A stretch of 29,896 bases of DNA from a virus: the IMG/VR virus record IMGVR_UViG_3300047546_000918, positions 1 through 29,896 of that record; one strand, given 5' to 3'. The notes below the pieces were generated by a model that ran no database searches, was not told the DNA's origin, and saw only the letters and a list, made by a program, of their open reading frames with translations. Numbering within the stretch: position 1 is the stretch's first letter; every line of letters starts with the position of its first letter. A program made the translations under genes and the position numbers. Of the stretch, positions 3,252 to 21,431 are shown in pieces.

Positions 3252-3686
3252 TTAACGTGTGAAACTCTTCAGCATCCAACCATGTTTTTGATGAGCATCT
3301 AAAATGTCTTGTAGAAAGTTACCTACCGCAGGTTCGTCTGCCGCATCTGCAAGTGCAATACCAGTACGCAACTCCATAATGTATTTGTCGTTGTCTTGAG
3401 CAAGTTCTGACATCATTACGATTGGTGCAGGTATTGCTATGTTGAACGTAATCTTTGACAATTCACTCATTCTTGCAAGAGTTGTTGGCGCATAAGAGTT
3501 CAATGCACGAATGTGTTCTGCGATTAAATCGGTCTGGTCGAACACAGATTCATAAAAGTCTCCTAAGAAACCATGATATTGTGCAAAGTCGGGACCCTCT
3601 ACATTCCAATGAAAAGTATGTGCTTTAAAGTACAAAGCAAAGTTTGTACCTAAGATGACTTTCATTTGTTCGATTAGTTGTTCCAT
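3252..3686 (-). CDS. Dps/ferritin-like protein inside the terminase operon
   Basis: This 144-residue protein looks like a Dps (DNA starvation protection) ferritin-like protein. Dps forms dodecamers that oxidise and store iron and can shield DNA from Fenton damage. The signature HTFHWNVEGPDF (23-34), then a second His and DLIAEHIRAL (53-62), and a C-terminal HQKHGWMLKS ending are all typical. Mapped on E. coli Dps, His26, His38, Asp53 and Glu57 match His51, His63, Asp78 and Glu82. The position of Asp67 is Gly42, with Asp43 next to it. The lysine-rich N-terminal tail of E. coli Dps is absent. The gene lies four bases after gp16 and three before gp17, where T4 has nothing between these genes. 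Its role in the phage is unknown; protecting DNA or binding iron during infection are guesses. Confidence 0.88.
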   Translation of the reverse strand: MEQLIEQMKVILGTNFALYFKAHTFHWNVEGPDFAQYHGFLGDFYESVFDQTDLIAEHIRALNSYAPTTLARMSELSKITFNIAIPAPIVMMSELAQDNDKYIMELRTGIALADAADEPAVGNFLQDILDAHQKHGWMLKSFTR

Positions 3687-3690
3687 AATT

Positions 3691-4092
3691 TTATTTATTT
3701 CCTTTAATCATTTTAAGTAACTCGTTTGTACTTCCAACAAATACTGCTTTATCTATACTGACACTTTTACTAGATTCTGATTGAGGTGCAAGTTCTTTTT
3801 TACGCTTCTGAAGTTCTAATAAATCTTTATTCATCTCAGCCAGATTTTTCATCATTGTGGCTAAGACTTCATATGCTCTTGGTGATTCTGACTGATTCGC
3901 TACGGATGCCAGTTCAGACAATGCTCGGTTACCATTATCAATTAATGAACGCATATTGGTACGAGCAAATTCAGCATCAGAATCAATTTGATTAGTAGAA
4001 TCCTCCACAATAACAGGCAATGTTTCTATTGTTTTTTCTTCAATAGGCTCAACATCAAAAATCTCTGACAAGTTTTTGTTTAGTTTTTTCAT
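3691..4092 (-). CDS. 16: Terminase small subunit gp16
   Basis: This is the likely small terminase, which recognises phage DNA and regulates the gp17 motor. From the ATG at 4090-4092 it is 133 residues, a little shorter than T4 gp16 (164). The N-terminus (MKKLNKNLSEIFDVEP) resembles other T4-like gp16 proteins. The middle (SDAEFARTNMRSLIDNG, then a helix-rich stretch ending in LLELQKRKKE) fits the central oligomerisation helices, and the C-terminus ends in NELLKMIKG. I chose this start because it overlaps the gp15 stop in an ATGA junction. An in-frame ATG five codons upstream (4105-4107) is the alternative. The call rests on position between gp15 and gp17 as well as sequence character. Confidence 0.85.
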   Translation of the reverse strand: MKKLNKNLSEIFDVEPIEEKTIETLPVIVEDSTNQIDSDAEFARTNMRSLIDNGNRALSELASVANQSESPRAYEVLATMMKNLAEMNKDLLELQKRKKELAPQSESSKSVSIDKAVFVGSTNELLKMIKGNK

Positions 4093-5087
4093 AATGTATC
4101 TGGCCATTCTTTAATTGTTTCGGTAAATCCAAAATCAGCGGGTGGTGCAGCAGTTGTCGGTGTGGGTTCAGTGATTACCGCAGCGGCATTGATTGATGTT
4201 ACATCAAGTGTGGCCACATTGTATTTTGCACCTGAGTAATCACCAATTAATGTATATCCTGGTTTAATGTACTCATTGCCACCTGTGATAACAAGTGTAC
4301 CAAGTGAAGTATTACTGAAGTATTCCACTGTACCAAAGAATCCATTAGCAGTGTCACGAATTGTTTCACCAGTGGTATATACATTATTACCATTGGCATA
4401 ATCAACATAGACTTTTTGTATCAACTTAGATGTAAGGTCGATATTGACATTTGTATTTGCCTGATTAATAATCTTGCCAGATTTGACTGGTGGCCAGATG
4501 AAACTTTTAGCAGTAAACGTCAAATCCCATACAATAATTCTTGTTGTGCCGTCAGACATACCACCTTCATATTCAACTGTAGATGCAACAGAGTTGAGTA
4601 TGATTGGTACAGTATATTTTTGATTCATTGCAGGTATAAAATCTACCACAACACTAAAGTCTGGCGTAAAAAACGGCAAAATTTGTTCTAGTATTTGTGT
4701 GCCGTCTTCTGTATTACGAACATATATTGATAAACTAAATTCAAAATTGTAAGGCACAGGAAGATATTGTGTCGCTACACCAGTATTTGTTGCTGCTGCA
4801 AAGTTCTGTAATGTAGAAATCTGTTTACGGCTGGAATCATATTCAAGACTGTCAAGATTAAATGACATTCTTGGTATCACAGAATTGACTGACTTAATAA
4901 GATTCGGATCAGAAGTAATCTGTGTCAAATATCTTTCTTTGGGTCCATACGACAACGGCACTTTAAGTTTTTCTTTTGGTGAACCTGATTGTGTATAACG
5001 AACAATCTCAAGATCATTAAACATTGTGCCAAACACAACAACCATTTTACGAATGGTGCGATGATAAAATTGTGCATTACCTAACAT
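4089..5087 (-). CDS. 15: Tail completion / sheath stabilisation protein gp15
   Basis: This matches T4-like gp15, which caps the tail at the head-proximal end, stabilises the extended sheath and makes the join to the neck. It has 332 residues against 272 in T4. The N-terminus (MLGNAQFYHRTIRKMVVVFG, then MFNDLEIVRY) and the middle LPVPYNFEFSLSIYVRNTEDG are typical, as is LTFTAKSFIWPP. After about residue 215 there is an extra beta-rich tail with a GETIRDTANGFFGTVEYF-type segment that T4 lacks; similar extensions are common in cyanophage-type relatives. The start ATG overlaps the gp14 stop by one base. It is preceded by the ribosome site TTTGGAG, which lies inside the last gp14 codons. Its stop overlaps gp16. 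Confidence 0.92.
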   Translation of the reverse strand: MLGNAQFYHRTIRKMVVVFGTMFNDLEIVRYTQSGSPKEKLKVPLSYGPKERYLTQITSDPNLIKSVNSVIPRMSFNLDSLEYDSSRKQISTLQNFAAATNTGVATQYLPVPYNFEFSLSIYVRNTEDGTQILEQILPFFTPDFSVVVDFIPAMNQKYTVPIILNSVASTVEYEGGMSDGTTRIIVWDLTFTAKSFIWPPVKSGKIINQANTNVNIDLTSKLIQKVYVDYANGNNVYTTGETIRDTANGFFGTVEYFSNTSLGTLVITGGNEYIKPGYTLIGDYSGAKYNVATLDVTSINAAAVITEPTPTTAAPPADFGFTETIKEWPDTL

Positions 5088-5998
5088 TACGGTTCTCCAA
5101 ACGGATTAACTTCCGTAAAGTCAATGATACCATCACTTGCTGCTTCAATACGTGCATTGTCAATGATGTCTTCAAATGCTGTGTTTTGAACTGGTGCATC
5201 CGATGCAAGTGTAACTGTCCACTGTGCAGAACTTGTATTACCTTTTACATTGGCTGACGCTGTAAAGTCACCTTGCATACGATAAACATCAATATATGAA
5301 TTTGGTTGAAAATCATAAACTAACGCTTGTGCTGTTGCTGAAGAAACATTTGAACCTTGATACACAATCTCATCATTTACAAATTTACCTGAACCTGAAC
5401 CTAAAGAAATACGTAGTCTTGGGTAGTAATTACGAATACTATTATCAATTTCTGCGATACCTGTTTCAATAATTTCATTGGAAAAGTAAAACTGTTTCAT
5501 TCTTAAAGCATAGACATATACATTACCACCACGACCACGGCCTAATGTATAAAACATTGCTTGATCGTTTTCAGATTCCACACTAGTAATTTCAAAAAAA
5601 CTTGTGGTCATTGGCACATAAACTAAATCACCTTCACGTGGTCTTGTGTAGCCATTAACTGTATATCTAAATCTTAGTCGTGATATAAGCATGGTGACTT
5701 CATCACGAATTTCTAAGCCAAATTTAGATATAAAATCTTGTTCGCCATCAAACCCCGAAACATTTTCAAGGTACATCTCAATGGCATGTGCGGTCAAATA
5801 TTGTTTGAGTGGATCTTCACCAAAAAGGTAATCTACCTGGTCACGTGTTGTGCGTGGCAAATAATAGACATCTAGCCCATAAATTTTAAGTGCTTCAATT
5901 ACCAAGTCTTCAACCAGCAGTTGCTCAGGAGTAATCGGAGCATCTGCAAGTCTGCTTGGAAAATTATTAAAATAGAAGTTTGTGGCGATTTTAGTTAC
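5087..5998 (-). CDS. 14: Neck protein gp14, start codon apparently lost
   Basis: This is the T4-like gp14 neck protein, part of the head-completion ring that joins head and tail. The longest frame from a conventional start begins at TTG 5903-5905 (272 residues, VIEALKIYGLDVYYLPR). The same frame stays open upstream to a TAG at 5999-6001 and encodes NFYFNNF and then PEQLLVEDLVIEALKIYG, which looks like the conserved gp14 N-terminus. That stretch has no ATG, GTG or early TTG. The codons just after the TAG are GTA ACT AAA ATC GCC ACA AAC. The real start was probably ATG GCT ACT AAA, now used by the GIY-YIG gene at 6575. About 303 residues would result if the whole open frame is translated. How translation begins here is unclear, and a two-base sequence error is possible. 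Confidence 0.85.
   Translation of the reverse strand, partial: VTKIATNFYFNNFPSRLADAPITPEQLLVEDLVIEALKIYGLDVYYLPRTTRDQVDYLFGEDPLKQYLTAHAIEMYLENVSGFDGEQDFISKFGLEIRDEVTMLISRLRFRYTVNGYTRPREGDLVYVPMTTSFFEITSVESENDQAMFYTLGRGRGGNVYVYALRMKQFYFSNEIIETGIAEIDNSIRNYYPRLRISLGSGSGKFVNDEIVYQGSNVSSATAQALVYDFQPNSYIDVYRMQGDFTASANVKGNTSSAQWTVTLASDAPVQNTAFEDIIDNARIEAASDGIIDFTEVNPFGEP
5989..5995 (-). repeat. Downstream copy of insertion-flanking direct repeat
   Basis: ACTAAAA at 5989-5995 (minus strand) matches the copy at 6563-6569. The match extends imperfectly upstream: GATAGGTAACTAAAA (6003-5989) against GATAATGGCTACTAAAA (6579-6563), a two-base gap plus two mismatches. The pair brackets the GIY-YIG gene. 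Confidence 0.6.
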
Positions 5999-6575
5999 CT
6001 ATCGCCTTTCTTGAAGCCCACCATTCTTTAATTCTTTTAGATTGTTGTGCTTTATAAGCCGGATCATTTTTGCGTTTTTTCGCTGATTTTTTTCCAGCGT
6101 ACTGTGCTTGTGCGATCTTTTTAGGATTATTAAATCTAACTAAACTCATTTTTTGTTTGGTTTCATCACTGTGTTTTTTACCCAACATAGGTTCCACATT
6201 TCTATTATTTCTGGCAATTTTTAGTTTCTTTTTTGTCTCTTCACTATGATTTTTATCAGTCATACCACCTTGACCACCATGAGTCATATTATAACCACAA
6301 CCATTTTCAAAATAAGAATTGTTTTCTTTTATAAAAAATGTTTCCATTTCTTCCAAAAGATATTTTTTATCTTGTGATTCAAAAATGACTTCCCAAGAAA
6401 AAACATCATTACCATATTTTTGAATGGCTTTATGTAATAAATAATGACTTCCTTTTTTTGAGCAACTTTTATGTTCAATAATTCTTTTCTCTAAAGATTT
6501 ATGTGTGTAACCAATGTAAACTTTTCCATTTACATTATTAGTGCATTTATAAATCTTATATGTTTTAGTAGCCAT
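5991..6575 (-). CDS. GIY-YIG homing endonuclease with NUMOD3 motifs
   Basis: This 194-residue protein is a GIY-YIG family homing endonuclease, a selfish gene that spreads by cutting alleles lacking it. It shows KIY (7-9), YIG (20-22), Arg31, the LLEEMETF helix carrying the likely catalytic Glu (75-78) and Asn96 in GYNMTHGG. Two NUMOD3-type DNA-binding repeats follow: NHSEETKKKL and KHSDETKQKM (about 109-143). The tail is lysine-rich. The gene starts in a TAATG overlap with the gp13 stop and runs into gp14, so it lies exactly between two conserved neck genes. Its DNA is visibly richer in A and T than its neighbours, as expected for a recent arrival. Its first four codons (ATG GCT ACT AAA) appear to be the original gp14 start. 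Confidence 0.93.
   Translation of the reverse strand: MATKTYKIYKCTNNVNGKVYIGYTHKSLEKRIIEHKSCSKKGSHYLLHKAIQKYGNDVFSWEVIFESQDKKYLLEEMETFFIKENNSYFENGCGYNMTHGGQGGMTDKNHSEETKKKLKIARNNRNVEPMLGKKHSDETKQKMSLVRFNNPKKIAQAQYAGKKSAKKRKNDPAYKAQQSKRIKEWWASRKAIGN
6563..6569 (-). repeat. Upstream copy of insertion-flanking direct repeat
   Basis: ACTAAAA lies within codons 3-5 of the endonuclease gene. Joining this copy directly to the one at 5989-5995 (removing 574 bases) restores ATG GCT ACT AAA ATC GCC ACA AAC in the gp14 frame. This suggests the repeat marks the insertion boundaries. Confidence 0.6.
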
Positions 6576-7525
6576 TATCCAGTAAAGATTTCTGATGGTA
6601 GAGAACCCATCATGTAGATTTGTTCTTCCATCTCTTTAATTTCTTCTGTTGCTTCATCATAAATCTTTTGACCATTGAGTGTTACACCACCTGGCATTTG
6701 AATACCTTCAAACTTTTTAAGGTTATTGCCCCACTGTTGTTTGATTTTTGCTGTGGCTAATTGTTTCAGAAAACGGTCGTTCCATACATCAGTGGTACCT
6801 TCAATTTGAATTGCTGAATTGTTATGTGTCAGCGTTGGTGGTCCTACTAATGTTAAACTTGTAGGAGATTCAATATTACCAACTTGTTTTGATTCTGTGC
6901 CAATAGTAATGAAGTCAAACGGTACAATTTCTTGATCAAATTTTGTGCCATATCCAGTAATGGTATTTGAAGATGGTGAACCTGTAACTGTACCTGTCAA
7001 TACAACTGTCTCTGGTCGAATTGTACGATAACACTCAACGACAACCCAATCACCAGGTTGCACATCTCTTGTCCAATCAATGTCAAGAAACACTTTATTT
7101 TGATGACGATTGAATCTAAACTGTGGTGTACCAGAAAATAGCAAATTCAATGTACGTAGATGCTGCATTGTGATTTCATAGGACACATATGATACCGAAG
7201 TAAAGTCATATAAATCGTGCAGACGTAACTGATAACGCAAATCAAACATGTTGATTGACGCATTAGATTGATCAAATGGAAAAATACCAGTGACAAATTG
7301 CACAGCATCAGGACAGTAAATCCACTTACGATTAATATCTTCTTGTGTAATTTGATGTTTCATGAACAGTTTTTCTGTTCCATCAAAATGATAATCACGC
7401 CAAAAATTTAATGCATCATCAATACGATCATCTACTTGATCATCATCAACGTTAATTTCAATAACTGGCCAACCAAGTCGGCGTAAGCAATAATCTTTAA
7501 ATTGTTGTCTAGTTGAAATAGTCAT
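6575..7525 (-). CDS. 13: Neck protein gp13 (head completion)
   Basis: This is the T4-like gp13 neck protein, which with gp14 seals the filled head and provides the tail docking site. It has 316 residues (T4: 309). The N-terminus (MTISTRQQFKDYCLRRLG, then WPVIEINVDDDQVDDRIDDAL) and the C-terminal FLKQLATAKIKQQWGNNLKK and MPGGVTLNGQKIYDEA stretches are classic for the family. A central beta-rich segment (about residues 175-245, GTVTGSPSSNTITGYGTKFD) looks like a small inserted domain of the kind also seen in other structural proteins here. The stop TAA overlaps the ATG of the endonuclease gene by one base. No clear ribosome site precedes the ATG at 7523-7525. Confidence 0.95.
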   Translation of the reverse strand: MTISTRQQFKDYCLRRLGWPVIEINVDDDQVDDRIDDALNFWRDYHFDGTEKLFMKHQITQEDINRKWIYCPDAVQFVTGIFPFDQSNASINMFDLRYQLRLHDLYDFTSVSYVSYEITMQHLRTLNLLFSGTPQFRFNRHQNKVFLDIDWTRDVQPGDWVVVECYRTIRPETVVLTGTVTGSPSSNTITGYGTKFDQEIVPFDFITIGTESKQVGNIESPTSLTLVGPPTLTHNNSAIQIEGTTDVWNDRFLKQLATAKIKQQWGNNLKKFEGIQMPGGVTLNGQKIYDEATEEIKEMEEQIYMMGSLPSEIFTG

Positions 7526-7529
7526 GATG

Positions 7530-8267
7530 TTATGGGTTTTGGTTTATTGCTTTTTGAAAATTAGAGTTTGCTGCTAATATAGTATATGTATTTGCTGCCG
7601 TTTTTATAATATTAAAAGAATATACATCAACAGATTCTTGTTGCGTTGTTGCAAAAGATGGTGCAGAATTGCCCAAATAAAAAGGAACTTGTAACACACC
7701 ATCAACATATACATTTGCACGATATCTTGTCGCACCTTGTTTCAACAAAATTGCCGTGGTGACTGATTGTCCTATAGACAATTGTGAATCTAAAGTATTT
7801 TGTGTATTTGCTCTTAGATTGAAAGTTACATTTGCAGTAGTATTTGAAGAAAAGAAATATACTGTATTATTTTGTAAATCAATATTTACATTGCCACCAA
7901 CCGCTGTTGTGAAAACATTGGCGCTTTCAAATACTTGTGTCAAAGATATTTGTAAATTTGCAGCAAGAGTATTACCTGCGACCTGACCTGCTACGATATT
8001 ATTAGCACGAACACTGTTGGGCGCCAAATCATCACCAGTAATTGTTTGTGGTGCAATCAAGTTACCAGTAATTGTACCAGCAACAATATTATTACCACGA
8101 ATAATGTTATCGGCTAAGTCATCACCAGTAATTGTTTGTGGTGCAATCAAGTTACCAGTAATTGTACCAGCAACAATATTGTTGCCACGAACGGCGTTTG
8201 TTGCAATTTTATTTCCAAGAATTGCACCATCTGCTATACGACCCGATTCTACTTTTTGTTCTGGCAT
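7530..8267 (-). CDS. Fibre-like virion protein with GNNIVAGTITGNLIA repeats
   Basis: From ATG 8265-8267 this is a 245-residue protein. I chose this ATG over one 11 codons upstream because the ribosome site GGAGGT sits eight bases before it. Residues about 8-95 are repeats of the type RGNNIVAGTITGNLIA, with a hydrophobic residue about every five positions, suggesting a beta-solenoid or extended fibre shaft. The remaining ~150 residues form a beta-rich domain (NVNIDL, VTFNLRAN, GQSVTTAILL, YVDGVLQVPF) that is clearly paralogous to the C-terminal half of the protein at 8560-9204. Both probably build tail or baseplate fibres. The exact role is not recognised. It lies one base after its upstream neighbour and just before gp13. 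Confidence 0.75.
   Translation of the reverse strand: MPEQKVESGRIADGAILGNKIATNAVRGNNIVAGTITGNLIAPQTITGDDLADNIIRGNNIVAGTITGNLIAPQTITGDDLAPNSVRANNIVAGQVAGNTLAANLQISLTQVFESANVFTTAVGGNVNIDLQNNTVYFFSSNTTANVTFNLRANTQNTLDSQLSIGQSVTTAILLKQGATRYRANVYVDGVLQVPFYLGNSAPSFATTQQESVDVYSFNIIKTAANTYTILAANSNFQKAINQNP
8029..8190 (-). repeat. 90-base tandem duplication in fibre gene
   Basis: The stretch from 8029 to 8100 recurs at 8119-8190 with a 90-base period. The first 62 bases are identical and two differences follow. The unit encodes 30 residues (RGNNIVAGTITGNLIAPQTI and the following GDDLA). Such near-identity suggests a recent in-frame duplication. Confidence 0.85.
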
Positions 8268-12847: not shown

Positions 12848-15800
12848 TTATCCTCCAAATACAAGAGCCATAGCAATTGCCTTTCCTGTAGATGCTGCTG
12901 TATTTGAAAGGTTTGCAATTGCAGCATTAGCAGAAGAATTGACGTTTGCAATTGCAGCATTAGCAGAAGAATTGACGTTTGCAATTGCAGCATTAGCAGA
13001 AGAATTGACGTTTGCAATTGCAACATTTGCTGTATTAGAAATGTTGTTTGATACATTGCTTGAGTTATAAATTAGATTTACAACATCTGTACTTAATTTT
13101 GCTAATGTAATTGAACCATCTGGTGTAATGAAGGCATTTGCTGTCGTGTACATTGTAATGACACGAACTAACTCACCGTTTGCAGGTGCGCCATCAAAAG
13201 TAATTGTCTGTTGGATATTATTTACAGTATACGATGTAATTGGTTGTATAACACCATCAACTGAAACAATTAATACTTCACGGGCTTGTGGTAAGAAGCC
13301 AAGATTAAATGTTGAGAAATTACCGTTTGCAACAGTTTCAAATGTAGAAACCGAAACGTTTGAACTCACATATTGAATAAAATATGGATTAACTTTTTCA
13401 TATCCAACAACACGAATATTTTCACCAACACCAGGAGCAGTTGTAAATGTAACTGTGTTTGTTGATGGATTTACTGTAAATGCATTTTCAGGTTGTAAAA
13501 TACCACCAATTGAAACAAAGATTGTATTACCAGATTCAGGTCTAAATCCAATATTGAATCCCTGTGTTACACCATCACCAATACCGTTATAAGAAACAAC
13601 AACAGCACCAGCGGAGTTCGCAACATCAAGTGTATAAAGATTTACATTATTGAATGCTGCTACACGTACAGTTTCACCAGCGGGTGGTGGCTCATTGAAT
13701 GAAATAGAATTATTTGAAGGATTTACTTCATAGTCTGCATATTCAACTTGAACAACACCACCAATAGAAACAATTACGGCGGTATTAGATGGCGGTGAAA
13801 ATCCTAAAGCGTAAGTAGAAACTGCGCCGTTTGATGTTGTGGTAAATGTTCGTACTTCAGCATTGGCACCCGTATTTGCTTTTGCAAATGCGGCATTAGC
13901 CTGAATAAATGCCGCATTTGCTTGATTACGAACCCAAGGATCAGATGCATTATTTGCTGCATTGAAAGCAGCATTTGCCTGAATAAACGATGCATTTGCC
14001 GTATTAAATGCAGCATTCGTTTGAATGAACGAAGAATTTGCAACAATAAATGCTGAGTTTGCATACTGACTGCCTGAATTAGCAGTTGCAAAAGCACCGT
14101 TAGCATATATGCCGCCAGAGTTTGCTGCAATAAATGCACCATTAGCATGATCAAACGCCGAATTGCTGTGAAAGAATGCAGAGTTGGCTTGTATGAATCC
14201 AGAGTTAGCAATAATAAACGCTGCATTCGCATAGTTGCCTGCTGAGAAAGCGTCAGCATTTGCTACGTTTGCTTGAGTAAATGCGCCGTTAGCGTAAATC
14301 GCAGCAGAGTTTGCGGTGTAACTTGGCGTGTTAGCGTAAATTGATACAGTGTTCAGATCAGCATATGCAGAGTTGGCCTGTATAAATGCTGAGTTTGCAT
14401 AACTACCAGTTGTGTTTTGTGCATTGAATGCTGACTGTGCATGAACTATGGCAGCATTGGCTTGTATAAATGCAGCATTGGCGGTGTGAAATGCTGGCTG
14501 TACTTGTGGTGCTACATTATTTGCTGCCGCAAAGGCTGCATTAGCATAAGCACCAGCAGACAATGCATTAGCATCTGCGTTGTTTGCTTTATCAAATGCT
14601 GCATTGGCTTGTATAAACGCCGCATTAGCCGTATTAAATGAAGGTTGAACTTGTGGTGCTACGTTATTAGCAGCAATAAATGCCGCATTGGCATATGCAC
14701 CTGCCGACAGCGCATTGGCATCGGCATTATTAGCCTTATCAAATGACGCATTGGCATGAATAAATGCAGAGTTGGCTTGTATAAATGCCGCATTAGCAAT
14801 TGTGCCAGTTACAAGATTATTCGCATAATTAAATGCCGCATTCGCATGAATAAATGCAGAGTTGGCTTGTATGAACGAAGAGTTTGCTACATTGCCAGTT
14901 GCATTCTGTGATTGATATGCCGCATTGGCTTGAATGAATGCTGCATTAGCGGTATCAAACGAAGGCTGAACCTGTGGTGCTACATTATTTGCTGCGGCAA
15001 ATGCGGCGTTGGCGTGATTAAATGATGCGTTTGCTTGAATGAATCCAGAATTAGCGACAACAAATGATGCATTAGCGTACTGGCCAGTTGCATTCTGAGA
15101 CTGATATGCTGAGTTAGCGTGTACAAACGCAGCATTCGCATATTGACCAGTTGCATTCTGTGATTGATAAGCAGCATTAGCATGTACAAATGCCGAGTTT
15201 GCATACTGACCAGTAGCATTCTGTGATAAGTATGATGCGTTAGCGTGTACAAATGCCGAATTGGTAGTATTATATAATACCTTGATTACATTTGCAGAAG
15301 TTAGACTTGCATATGTTAGATTACCAGCACCATCAGTTCTAATATAATCGTCGTTAGAACCGCCAGTAATGTGAACATTAGCAATCGTTCCTAAAAGAAC
15401 ACTCTTTGAAAGACTTATATCTACATTGGCACGAATATTGATTGTGTTACTTGAACCGATGATACGCATCTGTTCATTTTCATTATTCATACCACCAGCA
15501 GCAAATACTACATCATTTTGTGGTAAGAATGTACCAACTACAAGATCACCACCACCAGTTGATGTGTTGCCATGTACATACAAATAACCATCATTTGGTC
15601 CGATTAGTGTGAATTCAGGATCAGCATGTTGACTACCGCCAATACCAACATCAATGTAAGTGTCATCTTCAGTACCATTGTCAGCAGTTGCGACATAATC
15701 ACCTGACGCATTCGGACCATTACTAATATTTTGAATGTTTATCTGCGAATAACCATCATAGTTTGCAGAAGCCTGGAATACTGTGAATGGTTGATAGTCA

Positions 15801-18118
15801 TAGCCAGTTGGAATACCAGCGTACAATGCGTTATGACCATTTGATGCATAACCAAAAAATTGACCGCTATTACCAGTAACAGTTATAGAAGTAACATTGC
15901 CTACAAAATTAACATTGCCTAAAACACTCAGGTCATTTTGAATTGTTACATTACCTGAAATCGTGCCGCCAGCCGAACTAAACTTAGTATTTGAATTATC
16001 AAATGCTGCTTGTGCTAATGTTGTTCCAGTATTAGCTTGATTGTAACCAGCATTAGCATGAGCAAAAGCAGCATTTGCTTCAATGAAACCACTATTGGCA
16101 TGAATGAATGAACTGTTCGCATGTACAAACGCCGCATTGGCGTATTGGCCTGTAGCATTCTGCGACTGATATGCTGAGTTAGCATGTATAAATGCCGAAT
16201 TTGCTTGAGTGTACGCAGCATTGGCTGAAGCAAAAGCACCATTGGCGTTTGCGAAAGCAGCATTGGCTGAAGCAAAAGCACCGTTAGCATTAGCAAATGA
16301 TGCATTGGCGTGATTAAATGATGCATTAGCATGAATAAATGCTGAGTTTGCATATTGGCCAGTTGCATTTTGACTTACATATGCTGCATTGGCAAGATCA
16401 AATGCTGCATTGGTTTGTATAAATGCCGAATTTGCTTGAATATAAGAAGCATTAGCAGCAGCAAATGCACCATTAGCATTTGCAAAGGCAGCATTGGCAT
16501 GATTGAATCCTGAGTTAGCATGAATCAGTGCTGAGTTAGCATGATTATATGCTGCATTTGATTTAGCAAAAGCACCGTTAGCATTTGCGAAAGCAGCATT
16601 CGCCATCGCAAGACCAGCATTGGCATTGGCATATGCGTTAGAAGAATAAATGTATAAGTCTACATTGCTATTCGCAGCAAAAACATAGTTCGCAAAAATG
16701 GCATTGGCACCAGTAATGCTGCCATTTGAACCTGTTGTTGTCAGTGTGTTGGATGTAAGATTACCAACAATTGTAACTGTGCCTGTTACAGTACCACCAT
16801 TATTTGCATCTAATGAGTTGTTTGCACGGATGAATGCGGCATTAGCGGTATTGAATGCCGCATTAGCCGAAGCAAAGGCACCATTGGCGTTAGCAAAGGC
16901 AGCATTGGCTCTTGCAAAAGCACCGTTAGCATTGGCAAAAGCAGCATTTGCATGATGAAAACTTGAGTTTACATGTATGAATGCAGCATTGGCCTGCAAG
17001 AATGCCGCATTAGCAGTGTTGAATGCAGGCTGTACTTGTGGGAATACATTGTTGGCGGCAGCAAATGCCGCATTGGCATGATTGAATGAAGCATTTGCTT
17101 GAATGAATCCCGAATTTGCAACAATAAATGATGCATTCGCAGAAGCAAAGGCACCATTGGCATTTGCAAAAGCGGCGTTAGCGGCAGCAAATGCACCATT
17201 GGCATTTGCGAAAGCAGCATTGGCTACATTACCAGTTGCATTCTGTGATTGATATGCCGCATTGGCTTGTATGAAACCTGAGTTTGCATGAATAAATGCA
17301 CCGTTCGCCAAAGTGAATGCAGCATTTGCGTATTCACCTGTAGAATTCTGACTGATAAACGAAGCATTGGCTTTGAAGAATGCAGCATTAGCATGGTCAA
17401 ATCCAGAATTGGCATGATAAAAAGTTGAGTTACCAAAAATAAATGCTGAGTTAGCATGATTATATGCTGCATTGGCTTGTATAAATGCCGAATTAGCGTA
17501 TTGACCTGTGGCATTCTGACTTTGATATGCAGCATTTGCTTGTATGAAGCCTGAATTGGCATGGTCAAATGAAGCATTTGCTTTTATAAATGCAGAGTTG
17601 GCGTATGATGCTGTCGCTGAACCACCTAAGTCATCATAGTTTGTGCCATCATTTGTGAACTGCCATTTATCAGCAGTTTCATTCCACAACAAATAAACAT
17701 TCGGTAATACACCACGATCAATTTCAATACCAGCATTCATTGTCGGCGTACCCGACTGACTGATTGCTGCATTCAATGTGATGATATTATCACCAATCAA
17801 TACAATAGGTACGTTGGCTCCAATCTGACCACCAACAATACTCAAATTACCCTGAATGGTAACGTCACCAGTAATTGTACCACCGACATTTGCACTTAGA
17901 GAATTATTTGCACGAAGATATGCAGCATTGGCAAAATGATACGCTGATATGCCACGAACATAAGAATCATGTCCACCAATTGCTAATGCGCCTGTCTCAT
18001 TAGGTGTGCCAATGAATAATGTGTTACTACTGTATGAATATGCTGGTTCACCAATGTTCAACGCCGGCGGCGTGTTTGTAGTCAGTGAACGTTTTATTTG
18101 AATTGATGTATTTGACAT
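12848..18118 (-). CDS. Giant tail-fibre-like protein with about 130 ANxAFxx heptads
   Basis: This 1756-residue protein is probably a long fibre. Residues 1-165 resemble fibre N-termini (SIQIKRSLTTNTPPALNIGE, then GTPTMNAGIEIDRG and WNETADKWQFTNDGTNYDDL). Strict seven-residue repeats of the form ANxAFxx (variants ANSAYQSQNATGQY) fill about 166-428, 495-703 and 950-1420. A globular insert at about 703-943 contains a GDYVATADNGTEDDTYIDVG segment known from phage fibres. Residues 1420-1656 hold three tandem beta-sandwich modules (VIVSIGGVVQ, IFVSIGGILQ, LIVSVDGVIQ). The tail has 11-residue repeats and ends GKAIAMALVFGG. Phe/Tyr and Ala fall in a 4-3 spacing, as in a coiled coil. It starts ten bases after its neighbour with only a weak ribosome site. 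The exact role (long fibre, whisker or side fibre) is unknown. Confidence 0.82.
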   Translation of the reverse strand: MSNTSIQIKRSLTTNTPPALNIGEPAYSYSSNTLFIGTPNETGALAIGGHDSYVRGISAYHFANAAYLRANNSLSANVGGTITGDVTIQGNLSIVGGQIGANVPIVLIGDNIITLNAAISQSGTPTMNAGIEIDRGVLPNVYLLWNETADKWQFTNDGTNYDDLGGSATASYANSAFIKANASFDHANSGFIQANAAYQSQNATGQYANSAFIQANAAYNHANSAFIFGNSTFYHANSGFDHANAAFFKANASFISQNSTGEYANAAFTLANGAFIHANSGFIQANAAYQSQNATGNVANAAFANANGAFAAANAAFANANGAFASANASFIVANSGFIQANASFNHANAAFAAANNVFPQVQPAFNTANAAFLQANAAFIHVNSSFHHANAAFANANGAFARANAAFANANGAFASANAAFNTANAAFIRANNSLDANNGGTVTGTVTIVGNLTSNTLTTTGSNGSITGANAIFANYVFAANSNVDLYIYSSNAYANANAGLAMANAAFANANGAFAKSNAAYNHANSALIHANSGFNHANAAFANANGAFAAANASYIQANSAFIQTNAAFDLANAAYVSQNATGQYANSAFIHANASFNHANASFANANGAFASANAAFANANGAFASANAAYTQANSAFIHANSAYQSQNATGQYANAAFVHANSSFIHANSGFIEANAAFAHANAGYNQANTGTTLAQAAFDNSNTKFSSAGGTISGNVTIQNDLSVLGNVNFVGNVTSITVTGNSGQFFGYASNGHNALYAGIPTGYDYQPFTVFQASANYDGYSQINIQNISNGPNASGDYVATADNGTEDDTYIDVGIGGSQHADPEFTLIGPNDGYLYVHGNTSTGGGDLVVGTFLPQNDVVFAAGGMNNENEQMRIIGSSNTINIRANVDISLSKSVLLGTIANVHITGGSNDDYIRTDGAGNLTYASLTSANVIKVLYNTTNSAFVHANASYLSQNATGQYANSAFVHANAAYQSQNATGQYANAAFVHANSAYQSQNATGQYANASFVVANSGFIQANASFNHANAAFAAANNVAPQVQPSFDTANAAFIQANAAYQSQNATGNVANSSFIQANSAFIHANAAFNYANNLVTGTIANAAFIQANSAFIHANASFDKANNADANALSAGAYANAAFIAANNVAPQVQPSFNTANAAFIQANAAFDKANNADANALSAGAYANAAFAAANNVAPQVQPAFHTANAAFIQANAAIVHAQSAFNAQNTTGSYANSAFIQANSAYADLNTVSIYANTPSYTANSAAIYANGAFTQANVANADAFSAGNYANAAFIIANSGFIQANSAFFHSNSAFDHANGAFIAANSGGIYANGAFATANSGSQYANSAFIVANSSFIQTNAAFNTANASFIQANAAFNAANNASDPWVRNQANAAFIQANAAFAKANTGANAEVRTFTTTSNGAVSTYALGFSPPSNTAVIVSIGGVVQVEYADYEVNPSNNSISFNEPPPAGETVRVAAFNNVNLYTLDVANSAGAVVVSYNGIGDGVTQGFNIGFRPESGNTIFVSIGGILQPENAFTVNPSTNTVTFTTAPGVGENIRVVGYEKVNPYFIQYVSSNVSVSTFETVANGNFSTFNLGFLPQAREVLIVSVDGVIQPITSYTVNNIQQTITFDGAPANGELVRVITMYTTANAFITPDGSITLAKLSTDVVNLIYNSSNVSNNISNTANVAIANVNSSANAAIANVNSSANAAIANVNSSANAAIANLSNTAASTGKAIAMALVFGG
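12911..13030 (-). repeat. 33-base tandem repeat, about 3.6 copies
   Basis: Units begin at 12911, 12944, 12977 and 13010. The first three are identical in DNA sequence and the fourth diverges after about 13 bases. Each encodes 11 residues (AIANVNSSANA) near the C-terminus of the giant fibre. Exact DNA identity contrasts with the diverged heptads elsewhere in the same gene. Confidence 0.92.
13860..15265 (-). repeat. Heptad repeat block 2 of giant fibre (ANxAFxx)
   Basis: This block of 21-base units encodes ANxAFxx heptads, including the variant AANNVAPQVQPSFxT used three times and SAGAYAN used three times. Codons for the same residues vary freely (gcattagc, gcattggc and gcgttagc on the plus strand). 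The protein pattern is therefore kept while the DNA has drifted. Boundaries are approximate. Confidence 0.85.
15995..16630 (-). repeat. Heptad repeat block 1b of giant fibre
   Basis: This is a second stretch of ANxAFxx heptads, lying between the globular insert and a short non-repeat spacer (16630-16830). Alternating ANGAFAS/ANAAFAN pairs dominate. Boundaries are approximate. Confidence 0.85.
16830..17620 (-). repeat. Heptad repeat block 1a of giant fibre
   Basis: This is the N-terminal block of ANxAFxx heptads in the giant fibre gene. The register is kept even through the QNATGQY, FGNSTFYH and VQPAFNT variants, which are also whole heptads. Boundaries are approximate. Confidence 0.85.
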
Positions 18119-19466: not shown

Positions 19467-21431
19467 TTATCCAACAACTTTAATAATAACGATTCCTGAG
19501 CCACCATTGCCGCCTGAATACTGGCGGCAGGCTTGCGGTGCACCGTTTCTTGATGCACCGCCACCTCCACCACCTGTTGCTAATGTGGCATTATTTCCGT
19601 TGGCTCCTAATCCTGGAGTTCCGGGACCCGATATTGCACCAGCTCCACCCCCACCACCTGTACCACCTGTTCCCCAACTTTGAACTGGCGCTGCACCCCC
19701 ACCACCGCCACCGCCGCCATAAGTGACTGATGCTCCACTTATAGTAGAAGCAATACCATTACCTCCACTACCAGAAGTGGCCACAGGACCACCACCACCA
19801 GTTCCATTTGCAGAGGCTCCACCACCACCAGAAGCATTAGTTAATGGAGAAATTGTAGTTCCTCCACCGAATCCCTGAGCAGGAGTTACATTAGGTATGT
19901 TACCTTGGCCACCATTAACTCCTACACCACAGTTAGAGCCTATACCTCCACCACCAGATCCACCATTTTCACCATTATAAAAAGTCACTCCTGAAGGAAA
20001 TGAAGACGAAGTAAATCCACCTCCTCTGCCACCACCGGTTGAAGAAATTTGATTTGGTGCAGTTCCAAAAGAACTATTTCCACCATTAGCACCTGCGTCT
20101 ATGAAAGAGGTATTTGCTGCAAAGCCTCTTGTGCCGCCAGCTCCAACTTGTATGGCGTAAGTTGCACCTGGAGTAATTGGATAATTTGTTCCGGATCTAA
20201 CTCCGCCGGCGCCTCCACCACCACCAGCATAGTTTCTTGAACACGCAAAAGAAGCTGCACCACCACCACCGCCGCCACCGACGATGAGATAGTCAATCAA
20301 TGTAGCACCAGGCGGTGCGACCCAATTAGTTGATGCTTTGAAGGTGTAAGTATTTGTATTTGTTGATTGCAGATAACGAATAATGACGACACCGGAACCA
20401 CCTGAGCCACCTGGAAGAAATACAAAAGGTGTAGTAGGCACTGCGGGTGCTGAACAAGCACTTCCACCACCCCCACCACCGGTGAATGCTGTTCCGTTTG
20501 CTCCATTGCCCCGTATTGTTGAACAAAAATTACCTAAAGGTGCGGTTCTTCCACCACCACCTCTACCGCCACCACCGCAACCACCGGCGCCAGCATAAGA
20601 ACAAAGAGATCCTTGTGCGGGGTATGTGGGTGTTGGGTATGCTCCACCTCCCCCACCACTAGCATAATACGTTGAAATTCCTGTTATAGCGGAAACACCA
20701 CCAATTCCACCGCCACCAGCTGAAGTCGTGTTAGCAGTTCCTCCGACCGCACCTGCTCCACCTCCTCCACCTCCCATGGCTCGCATAACACCAGCGGAAG
20801 GTCCAGTGGCGCCACTACTAGTACCACCATTATTCCCCTGAGAGGGTGAGGTGACTGGAATATTTCCAGAACCCGCAAGCCAATTAGGCGCTCCACCCAC
20901 TAATGCGCCAGAACCGCCCCCAGAGCCACCGGTTCCAGAGAAAGTTGAGAGTTGACAACCACCACCATGACCACCACCCCTTGAGATAACATCATTAGGA
21001 GAATTGCCGAAAGAACTGTTACTACCATTTCCACTTGCTTGTCCAGGTGCCACCGTTGATGTTCCACCAGCACCTATTGTTATAGTGTAATCAGTGCCAG
21101 GAGTTACACTCATGTTTGTGCCTATACGAAAACCACCAGCACCGCCGCCACCGCCTATGAAAACGCAAGAATGTGTTATTCCTGTTCGCACAGCTCCTCC
21201 ACCCGCACCGCCACCGCCAACAACAAGATAATCAACAGAAGTAACGCCAGGCGGTGCTGTCCAAGTGCCAGAACCCGTAAATGTCAAAACAGTGGTGAGA
21301 AAGTTTTGTGGCCATTTACCTGCTGCGATGTAGTTCATGGCTTCAGATACAGTAAAGACGCCGCTTGTACCAGAAGTAGCGACTGAAACTGGTAGGGCTC
21401 TTACCAAACCACCTGAATAACGTCTAGTCAT
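19467..21431 (-). CDS. Glycine-rich tail adhesin with two duplicated domains
   Basis: This 654-residue protein opens MTRRYSGGLVRALPVSVATS and then has two long glycine-rich domains. Domain 1 (about 45-353) begins FTGSGTWTAPPGVTSVDYLV and ends GSGGSGVVIIRYLQ. Domain 2 (about 360-654) begins FKASTNWVAPPGATLIDYLI and ends GNGGSGIVIIKVVG. Runs such as GGGGAGGG and GGGGGGGA recur in both. Glycine-rich folds of this kind are known in phage adhesins; in phage S16 gp38 a polyglycine-II sandwich presents receptor-binding loops. A receptor-binding role at the fibre tip is therefore likely. A small chaperone-like gene follows. The ribosome site GAGGA lies eight bases upstream. Confidence 0.82.
   Translation of the reverse strand: MTRRYSGGLVRALPVSVATSGTSGVFTVSEAMNYIAAGKWPQNFLTTVLTFTGSGTWTAPPGVTSVDYLVVGGGGAGGGAVRTGITHSCVFIGGGGGAGGFRIGTNMSVTPGTDYTITIGAGGTSTVAPGQASGNGSNSSFGNSPNDVISRGGGHGGGCQLSTFSGTGGSGGGSGALVGGAPNWLAGSGNIPVTSPSQGNNGGTSSGATGPSAGVMRAMGGGGGGAGAVGGTANTTSAGGGGIGGVSAITGISTYYASGGGGGAYPTPTYPAQGSLCSYAGAGGCGGGGRGGGGRTAPLGNFCSTIRGNGANGTAFTGGGGGGSACSAPAVPTTPFVFLPGGSGGSGVVIIRYLQSTNTNTYTFKASTNWVAPPGATLIDYLIVGGGGGGGAASFACSRNYAGGGGGAGGVRSGTNYPITPGATYAIQVGAGGTRGFAANTSFIDAGANGGNSSFGTAPNQISSTGGGRGGGFTSSSFPSGVTFYNGENGGSGGGGIGSNCGVGVNGGQGNIPNVTPAQGFGGGTTISPLTNASGGGGASANGTGGGGPVATSGSGGNGIASTISGASVTYGGGGGGGGAAPVQSWGTGGTGGGGGAGAISGPGTPGLGANGNNATLATGGGGGGASRNGAPQACRQYSGGNGGSGIVIIKVVG

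Follow-up and report, generated by a model that had tools for sequence, protein, structure and literature searches.

How is an essential neck gene translated when its ordinary start codon appears to be missing? This question is raised by gp14 of a T4-like virus of bacteria, in a window that comprises all 29,896 nucleotides of IMG/VR record IMGVR_UViG_3300047546_000918 (positions 1 to 29,896). The minus strand of the window carries gp13, a GIY-YIG/NUMOD3 homing endonuclease gene, gp14 and gp15, that is, the T4-type neck gene order. A preliminary description of this DNA had reported that gp13 ends in TAATG, its TAA stop overlapping the ATG of the GIY-YIG gene, and that the N-terminus of gp14 has no ATG, GTG or TTG and a TAG before it; the sequence confirms both. 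The start is thus an unusual one, but the gene does possess the equivalent of a start codon, an ATC three codons below the GTA that follows the TAG. On the strength of sequence comparisons, it is very likely that gp14 is translated from this AUC (5989-5987), helped by a Shine-Dalgarno (SD) sequence within the final codons of the endonuclease gene, and that the whole start module was acquired by homing. The features concerned, one of them defined against the near-identical phage contig L002, are as follows.

6575..7525, minus strand: gp13 neck protein (head-tail adaptor Ad2), from PHROG 211 (E 8e-42) and the list of open reading frames (ORFs)
5991..6575, minus strand: free-standing GIY-YIG/NUMOD3 homing endonuclease gene, 194 aa, from Pfam, PHROGs and the comparison with L002
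5999..6001, minus strand: in-frame TAG of gp14, four codons before the start, which closes the frame upstream, from the sequence
5997..6000, minus strand: putative SD sequence AGGU for gp14, within the final endonuclease codons (ATA GGT AAC TAA), from the duplex with the anti-SD sequence
5987..5989, minus strand: predicted gp14 start codon ATC (AUC), aligned with the ATG, GTG or TTG of relatives
5969..5989, minus strand: first 21 bases of gp14, a tract apparently replaced along with the endonuclease, ATCGCCACAAACTTCTATTTT in the window versus ATGGCTACAAATTTCTATTTC in L002
5087..5989, minus strand: gp14 neck protein (head closure Hc2), 300 aa from the AUC, from PHROG 460 and Pfam T4_neck-protein

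The gene identities rest on family matches and on gene order. The endonuclease carries both a catalytic domain (Pfam PF01541, GIY-YIG, E 3e-8, 34.1 bits versus a cut-off of 22.6) and a NUMOD DNA-binding motif (PF07460, E 3e-9, 37.3 bits versus 20.4), belongs to PHROG 314 (E 2e-33), and is a free-standing element of which occupied (window) and empty (L002) alleles are present in close relatives. The gp14 protein belongs to PHROG 460 (E 2e-65) and to the Pfam T4_neck-protein family (PF11649, E 2e-30), with gp13 upstream and gp15 downstream, so that family and 13-14-15 order both identify it as T4 gp14.

The endonuclease gene ends in GCG ATA GGT AAC TAA, its stop lying 1 base ahead of the ATC, and the gp14 frame reads TAG GTA ACT AAA ATC GCC ACA AAC TTC TAT TTT AAT AAT TTT, with no ATG, GTG or TTG from the TAG (6001-5999) down to a TTG at codon 29 (5905). 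Relatives can be aligned unambiguously with this frame: their N-terminus, M-A-T-N-F-Y-F-N-N-F, opens with ATG, GTG or TTG exactly at the ATC 5989-5987, a near-cognate codon of the AUH type (ATT, ATC or ATA) that is therefore homologous in position to the canonical starts. Since the starts coincide, the GTA, which had been proposed as a start because of an AAAGG six bases upstream, is ruled out, and no two-base repair of the sequence is needed. The putative SD sequence lies 7 bases from the AUC, the same spacing as that of the AGGAG in other AUH alleles, and its duplex with ACCUCCUUA is worth -6.4 kcal/mol over positions -20 to -4, and -4.6 over a shorter stretch. The suspected two-base error can be excluded, because contig L001 (IMGVR 3300043395_002731) is 100% identical to the window over 5,449 bp, junction included, and because contig L010 repeats the junction TAGGTAACTAAAATCGCCACAAACTT at a much greater distance (74% identity in the endonuclease protein, 87% in the gp14 protein, about 81% in gp14 DNA). 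The ratio of non-synonymous to synonymous change in gp14 between the window and L010 (dN/dS 0.08) indicates purifying selection. Codon 2 of gp14 encodes Ala, Ser, Pro or Thr, so that the initiator Met is expected to be cleaved off; the mature protein would then bear no trace of the altered codon.

The start region of the window contains an inverted repeat, GGCGAT...ATCGCC (5984-6006), with the SD sequence in the loop and the AUC in the stem; it is broken in L010 and others. A conserved hairpin over the start was rejected, as GGCGAT and ATCGCC pair in the window (z-score -1.2, 71 nt) but not in L010 or the other alleles.

The origin of the module is suggested by pairs of nearly isogenic phages. 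L002 is almost the same phage as that of the window (about 99.8% identical on both flanks), except that it has no endonuclease and that its gp14 starts with ATG. The two differ at 4 positions over 2.8 kb upstream, at 5 positions in about 2.3 kb after gp14 codon 7, and at 4 positions, the ATG/ATC change among them, in the first 21 bases of gp14; thus 4 of the 9 differences within about 2.3 kb fall in those 21 bases (P about 3e-6). In L002 the TAATG at the end of gp13 is the start of gp14 itself, and the endonuclease ATG of the window occupies that very place, so that the endonuclease inherits the coupling to gp13. In this respect the earlier proposal that the endonuclease had captured the gp14 start stands; the link is a looser one than capture, however, for phages that lack the endonuclease can have AUH starts too, some of them with scars of it. 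A second pair, L323 (ATT, 17 bases after gp13) and L263 (TTG, 2 bases after gp13), shows 7 differences in the first 30 bases and none in the flanks (900 bases upstream, 2,470 downstream). In a third, L082 (ATT, with endonuclease) and L223 (ATG), 9 of the first 21 bases differ, five of them being silent third positions of consecutive codons. The start region is thus replaced alone between otherwise near-identical phages. Such short tracts beside an insertion are what a cut in the start region, repaired from an endonuclease-bearing donor, would probably leave, and the 21-base tract is consistent with an endonuclease that drives its own transfer by cleaving the empty allele. We also observed that L402/L403 and L406/L407 have common upstream insert genes, yet L402 has CAGGAGGCTAAAATCGCTACATCG where L406 has AAAATGGCAACAAAT, which indicates that the start module can change while the insert upstream stays the same.

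A survey of public viral contigs, combining a start-blind scan, scans with the gp14 and endonuclease proteins and two scans that required ATH, yielded 212 distinct gp14 start regions. Their start codons are ATG (119), GTG (30), TTG (13), ATT (26), ATC (18) and ATA (6), and none else; one allele counted as TTG, L091, is an ATT allele by homology, which brings the AUH total to 51. A strong SD sequence (free energy of at most -5.5 kcal/mol) precedes 50 of these 51 AUH alleles versus 8 of the 161 canonical ones, typically as AGGAG(G), five to eight bases ahead of the codon, and it is this sequence and the AUH codon that are the conserved parts of the AUH leaders. Upstream of the codon, the 50 alleles called as AUH show no in-frame ATG, GTG or TTG before a stop is reached, and the next one downstream is 11-93 codons off. 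AUH starts make up 8 of the 105 alleles of the start-blind scan.

Some at least of the endonuclease-free AUH alleles resemble scars of a lost endonuclease. L105 retains 81 bases, a mini-gene encoding MEKRKILSGAIKLMWQKRKLQQLGVQN and a stop, which matches the endonuclease C-terminus of L103 and L088; L329 retains 54 bases that fuse the first and last endonuclease codons (MVNKVYRIYRKQQLVGV, then a stop); L069 retains 46 bases, again with an endonuclease 3' scar; and L063, without any insert, shares 21 bases, ATAGGTAAATAAAATTCCTAC, with L394, where they span the end of the endonuclease gene and the start of gp14. The AUH state is also scattered over the gp14 tree, where well-supported branches force at least 21 changes (by a quick method). 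It is thus probable, judging from these alleles, that homing moves the start module along with the endonuclease gene. The link is not a rigid one. In samples collected by endonuclease similarity, blind to the start codon and with the endonuclease directly before gp14, AUH follows 8 of 9 NUMOD3-type and 12 of 30 seg-like endonucleases (20 of 39 together); in the sample collected by the gp14 N-terminus, it is found in 3 of 5 alleles with a long insert and in 5 of 97 without one. From these start-blind counts, the endonuclease favours AUH but does not force it.

Two simpler rules had to be abandoned: that an endonuclease upstream always means AUH (18 of the 30 seg-like and 1 of the 9 NUMOD3 cases keep ATG or GTG), and that any insert means AUH (L295 keeps ATG behind a 2.3 kb insert with no endonuclease homology). 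Other inserts found before an ATT-started gp14 encode an HTH-like protein (L112), a Vsr-like endonuclease plus more (L342), and a seg-like endonuclease with an extra gene (L368).

The swap is not confined to gp14. In L133:1794-2506 (the same as L486), a GIY-YIG gene is followed by a structural gene starting with ATC behind AGAGG, and the homologue in L487 has ATG at that exact place, directly after gp15; on sequence grounds, this is a second gene with the same start swap. A further candidate, L154:2592-3152, was left out. This frame follows a GIY-YIG gene, has no canonical start and matches tail genes of phage G (gp175) and Tunturi_5, but only in the C-terminal part of these longer genes, so that a gene split by an endonuclease, or an intron, is as likely as an AUC start.

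Several points weigh against initiation at AUC through a homed module. In E. coli, AUC initiates translation poorly. The AGGU of the window is of the weakest kind in the set, weaker than most, and the anti-SD sequence that we assumed is the usual one, which may differ from that of the host. The surveyed alleles are related to one another and two of the scans selected for ATH, and the counts, including the 50 of 51 AUH alleles with a strong SD sequence, are not independent trials. L239 and L194 combine a strong SD sequence with ATG, so that the pairing with AUH is not absolute. Finally, 19 of the 39 endonuclease-preceded alleles of the start-blind samples have kept ATG or GTG.

Taking both sides together, we propose that DNA with an ordinary, ATG-started gp14, as in L002, was repaired with a donor that carried the endonuclease as template; along with the endonuclease gene, some 20 bases of gp14 would have been copied, so that the AUC, the SD sequence and the endonuclease would have come together by homing. 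The endonuclease would now be coupled to gp13 through the TAATG, in gp14's former place, and the ordinary initiator tRNA would read the AUC, aided by the SD sequence in the last endonuclease codons.

Why the codon should be AUH is a separate matter, on which we can only be tentative. One possible reason, short of probable, is dosage: small numbers of neck proteins suffice, and a strong SD sequence of its own combined with a very weak codon may restore the level of an ATG without SD sequence that was coupled to gp13. A strong SD sequence and a canonical start do nearly exclude each other, other genes of the window pair similar SD sequences with ATG, and there is a precedent in sigR of Streptomyces, where a weak start keeps stoichiometry (PMC5472188). 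A pure dosage effect should, however, make a strong SD sequence with GTG or TTG common, and this combination is nearly absent; the ATG alleles L239 and L194 also speak against it. Descent is likewise a possibility that we would not call probable: one AUH start with its SD sequence may have arisen once beside an endonuclease and spread by homing and recombination, the weak codon being a tolerated passenger. The core GGAG(G)NNTAAAATH common to distant gp14s, the scatter of AUH on the tree (the 21 or more changes given above) and the shortness of the replaced tracts all fit such a history, but several origins are suggested by the differing leaders of L315 (GGAGTTTGTGCC ATA), L323 and L342, by the different gene in L133 and by the fact that the endonucleases are of two families.

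Those GIY-YIG homing enzymes that have been studied require a G where they cut. One might speculate, though we consider it rather unlikely, that the endonuclease target spans the gp14 start and requires the G of the ATG, so that an AUH codon would be usable by the ribosome yet uncuttable, and would be kept after loss of the endonuclease. The loss is confined to the third-base G (AUA, AUU and AUC, never CUG or ACG), and in the near-isogenic pairs synonymous changes extend over the first 7-10 codons as well, which is what cutting within the start region would lead one to expect. The ATG retained in about half of the start-blind endonuclease-bearing alleles speaks against simple immunity, as does the insert of L342, which is different and does not look like GIY-YIG. 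The more general proposition that AUH starts in phage genes, in gp14 and others, are homing-immunity alleles with or without the endonuclease, that an SD sequence from the last endonuclease codons rescues their initiation, and that the module spreads with the endonuclease and remains as a scar once the latter is lost, is, in our judgement, unlikely.

Alternatives to initiation at the AUC itself fare far worse. By analogy with T4 gene 60/mobA, programmed frameshifting, readthrough of a stop or bypass might carry ribosomes into gp14 from the frame of the endonuclease or of gp13. The window alone would allow this, as the endonuclease stop lies 1 base ahead of the ATC and only the TAG four codons upstream closes the gp14 frame. 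We regard this as highly improbable. In endonuclease-free AUH alleles the gap between the gp13 stop and the start is 9, 11, 12, 13, 14, 16 or 17 bases, so that an upstream stop occurs in all three relative frames, which excludes readthrough or frameshift as a general mechanism. There is neither a fixed frame relation between the upstream gene and gp14 nor a common slippery site or other conserved recoding signal; the SD sequence and the AUH codon are conserved instead. No more credible is an intron or bypassed insert between the two ACTAAA copies that flank the endonuclease. The copies are indeed 574 bases apart, as had been reported, and joining ATG GCT ACT AAA to ATC GCC ACA AAC gives an in-frame reading, but a search of 5000-7600 against Rfam gives no match to an intron or any other RNA, even with E as high as 1, endonuclease-free AUH alleles such as L028, L061, L085 and L323 lack an ATG exon upstream that could be joined, and the inserts vary widely in length and family. 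Least credible of all is that gp14 begins at the TTG 5905, the first canonical start and the one that gene finders would pick, or that the sequence is wrong by two bases: all relatives conserve an N-terminus (MATNFYFNNF, EQLLVED) upstream of this TTG, the junction repeats in independent contigs, and AUH alleles in many contigs refute either as a general explanation.

Start codons of essential genes are usually deemed fixed at ATG, GTG or TTG, with the AUU of infC as the exception that textbooks cite. Among the distinct gp14 alleles collected here, in a sample enriched for AUH (8 of 105 when start-blind), about a quarter begin with AUU, AUC or AUA, and a mobile gene would appear to rewrite the translation of its neighbour. 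Gene finders limited to the three usual codons would truncate gp14 in such phages. The natural isogenic pairs lend themselves to measuring AUH initiation and to testing IF3 fidelity and homing immunity.

Comparison with known systems brings out what is particular to this one. The infC gene (IF3) starts with AUU in E. coli and with ATC in Streptomyces (PMC5472188). It shares with gp14 a conserved AUH start, and translation of gp14 would be expected to be IF3-sensitive; unlike infC, gp14 is a phage structural gene, its start varies between phages that are otherwise almost the same and travels with a homing endonuclease, and no autoregulation is implied. In sigR of Streptomyces, a GTC start repressed by IF3 (PMC5472188) is likewise a non-canonical start, missed by annotation and thought to hold the product low, but it is not AUH, is chromosomal and is unlinked to mobile DNA. 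Closest in arrangement is T4 mobE, located between nrdA and nrdB with its start overlapping the nrdA stop (UAAUGA), flank co-conversion being established in T4 homing (PMC2988022). There too a free-standing endonuclease sits between two co-transcribed genes, overlap-coupled to the upstream stop, and flanking sequence is exchanged; a changed start of the downstream gene is not reported there, whereas here the start codon and SD sequence of gp14 are replaced. In genes split by endonucleases (Aeh1 nrdA, phage 25 gene 43, T4 gene 60/39 with mobA; PMC2988022), a homing endonuclease also forces a new mode of expression on an essential neighbour, but gp14 is neither split nor bypassed, and initiation alone would be altered.

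In our literature search, AUH starts turned up neither in phage genes nor in connection with homing endonucleases, most subscription journals lying outside its coverage. Two short junction queries found no AUH gp14 in cultured phages, and the SD-AUH pattern had no match among GTDB genome contigs. The records of S-SM1, Mosig, S-SRM01, DSL-LC03 and HTVC008M annotate gp13 and gp14 as adjacent or nearly so. In Synechococcus phage S-SRM01 (L385), an HNH-domain gene lies between gp14 and gp15 (3578-4105), so that a cultured phage, too, has an endonuclease-like insertion in its neck operon.

Elsewhere in the window, residues about 177-231 of gp13 match PHROGs of tail-fibre type (1980, 17834), which makes them an extra domain inside the neck protein. 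A 1756-aa ORF at 12848-18118, with many ANAAF/HANAAF-like repeats, is probably a tail fibre, and repeats of the GNNIVAGTITGNLI type are common to the ORFs adjoining it. The 654-aa ORF at 19467-21431 is very glycine-rich and consists of two similar halves.

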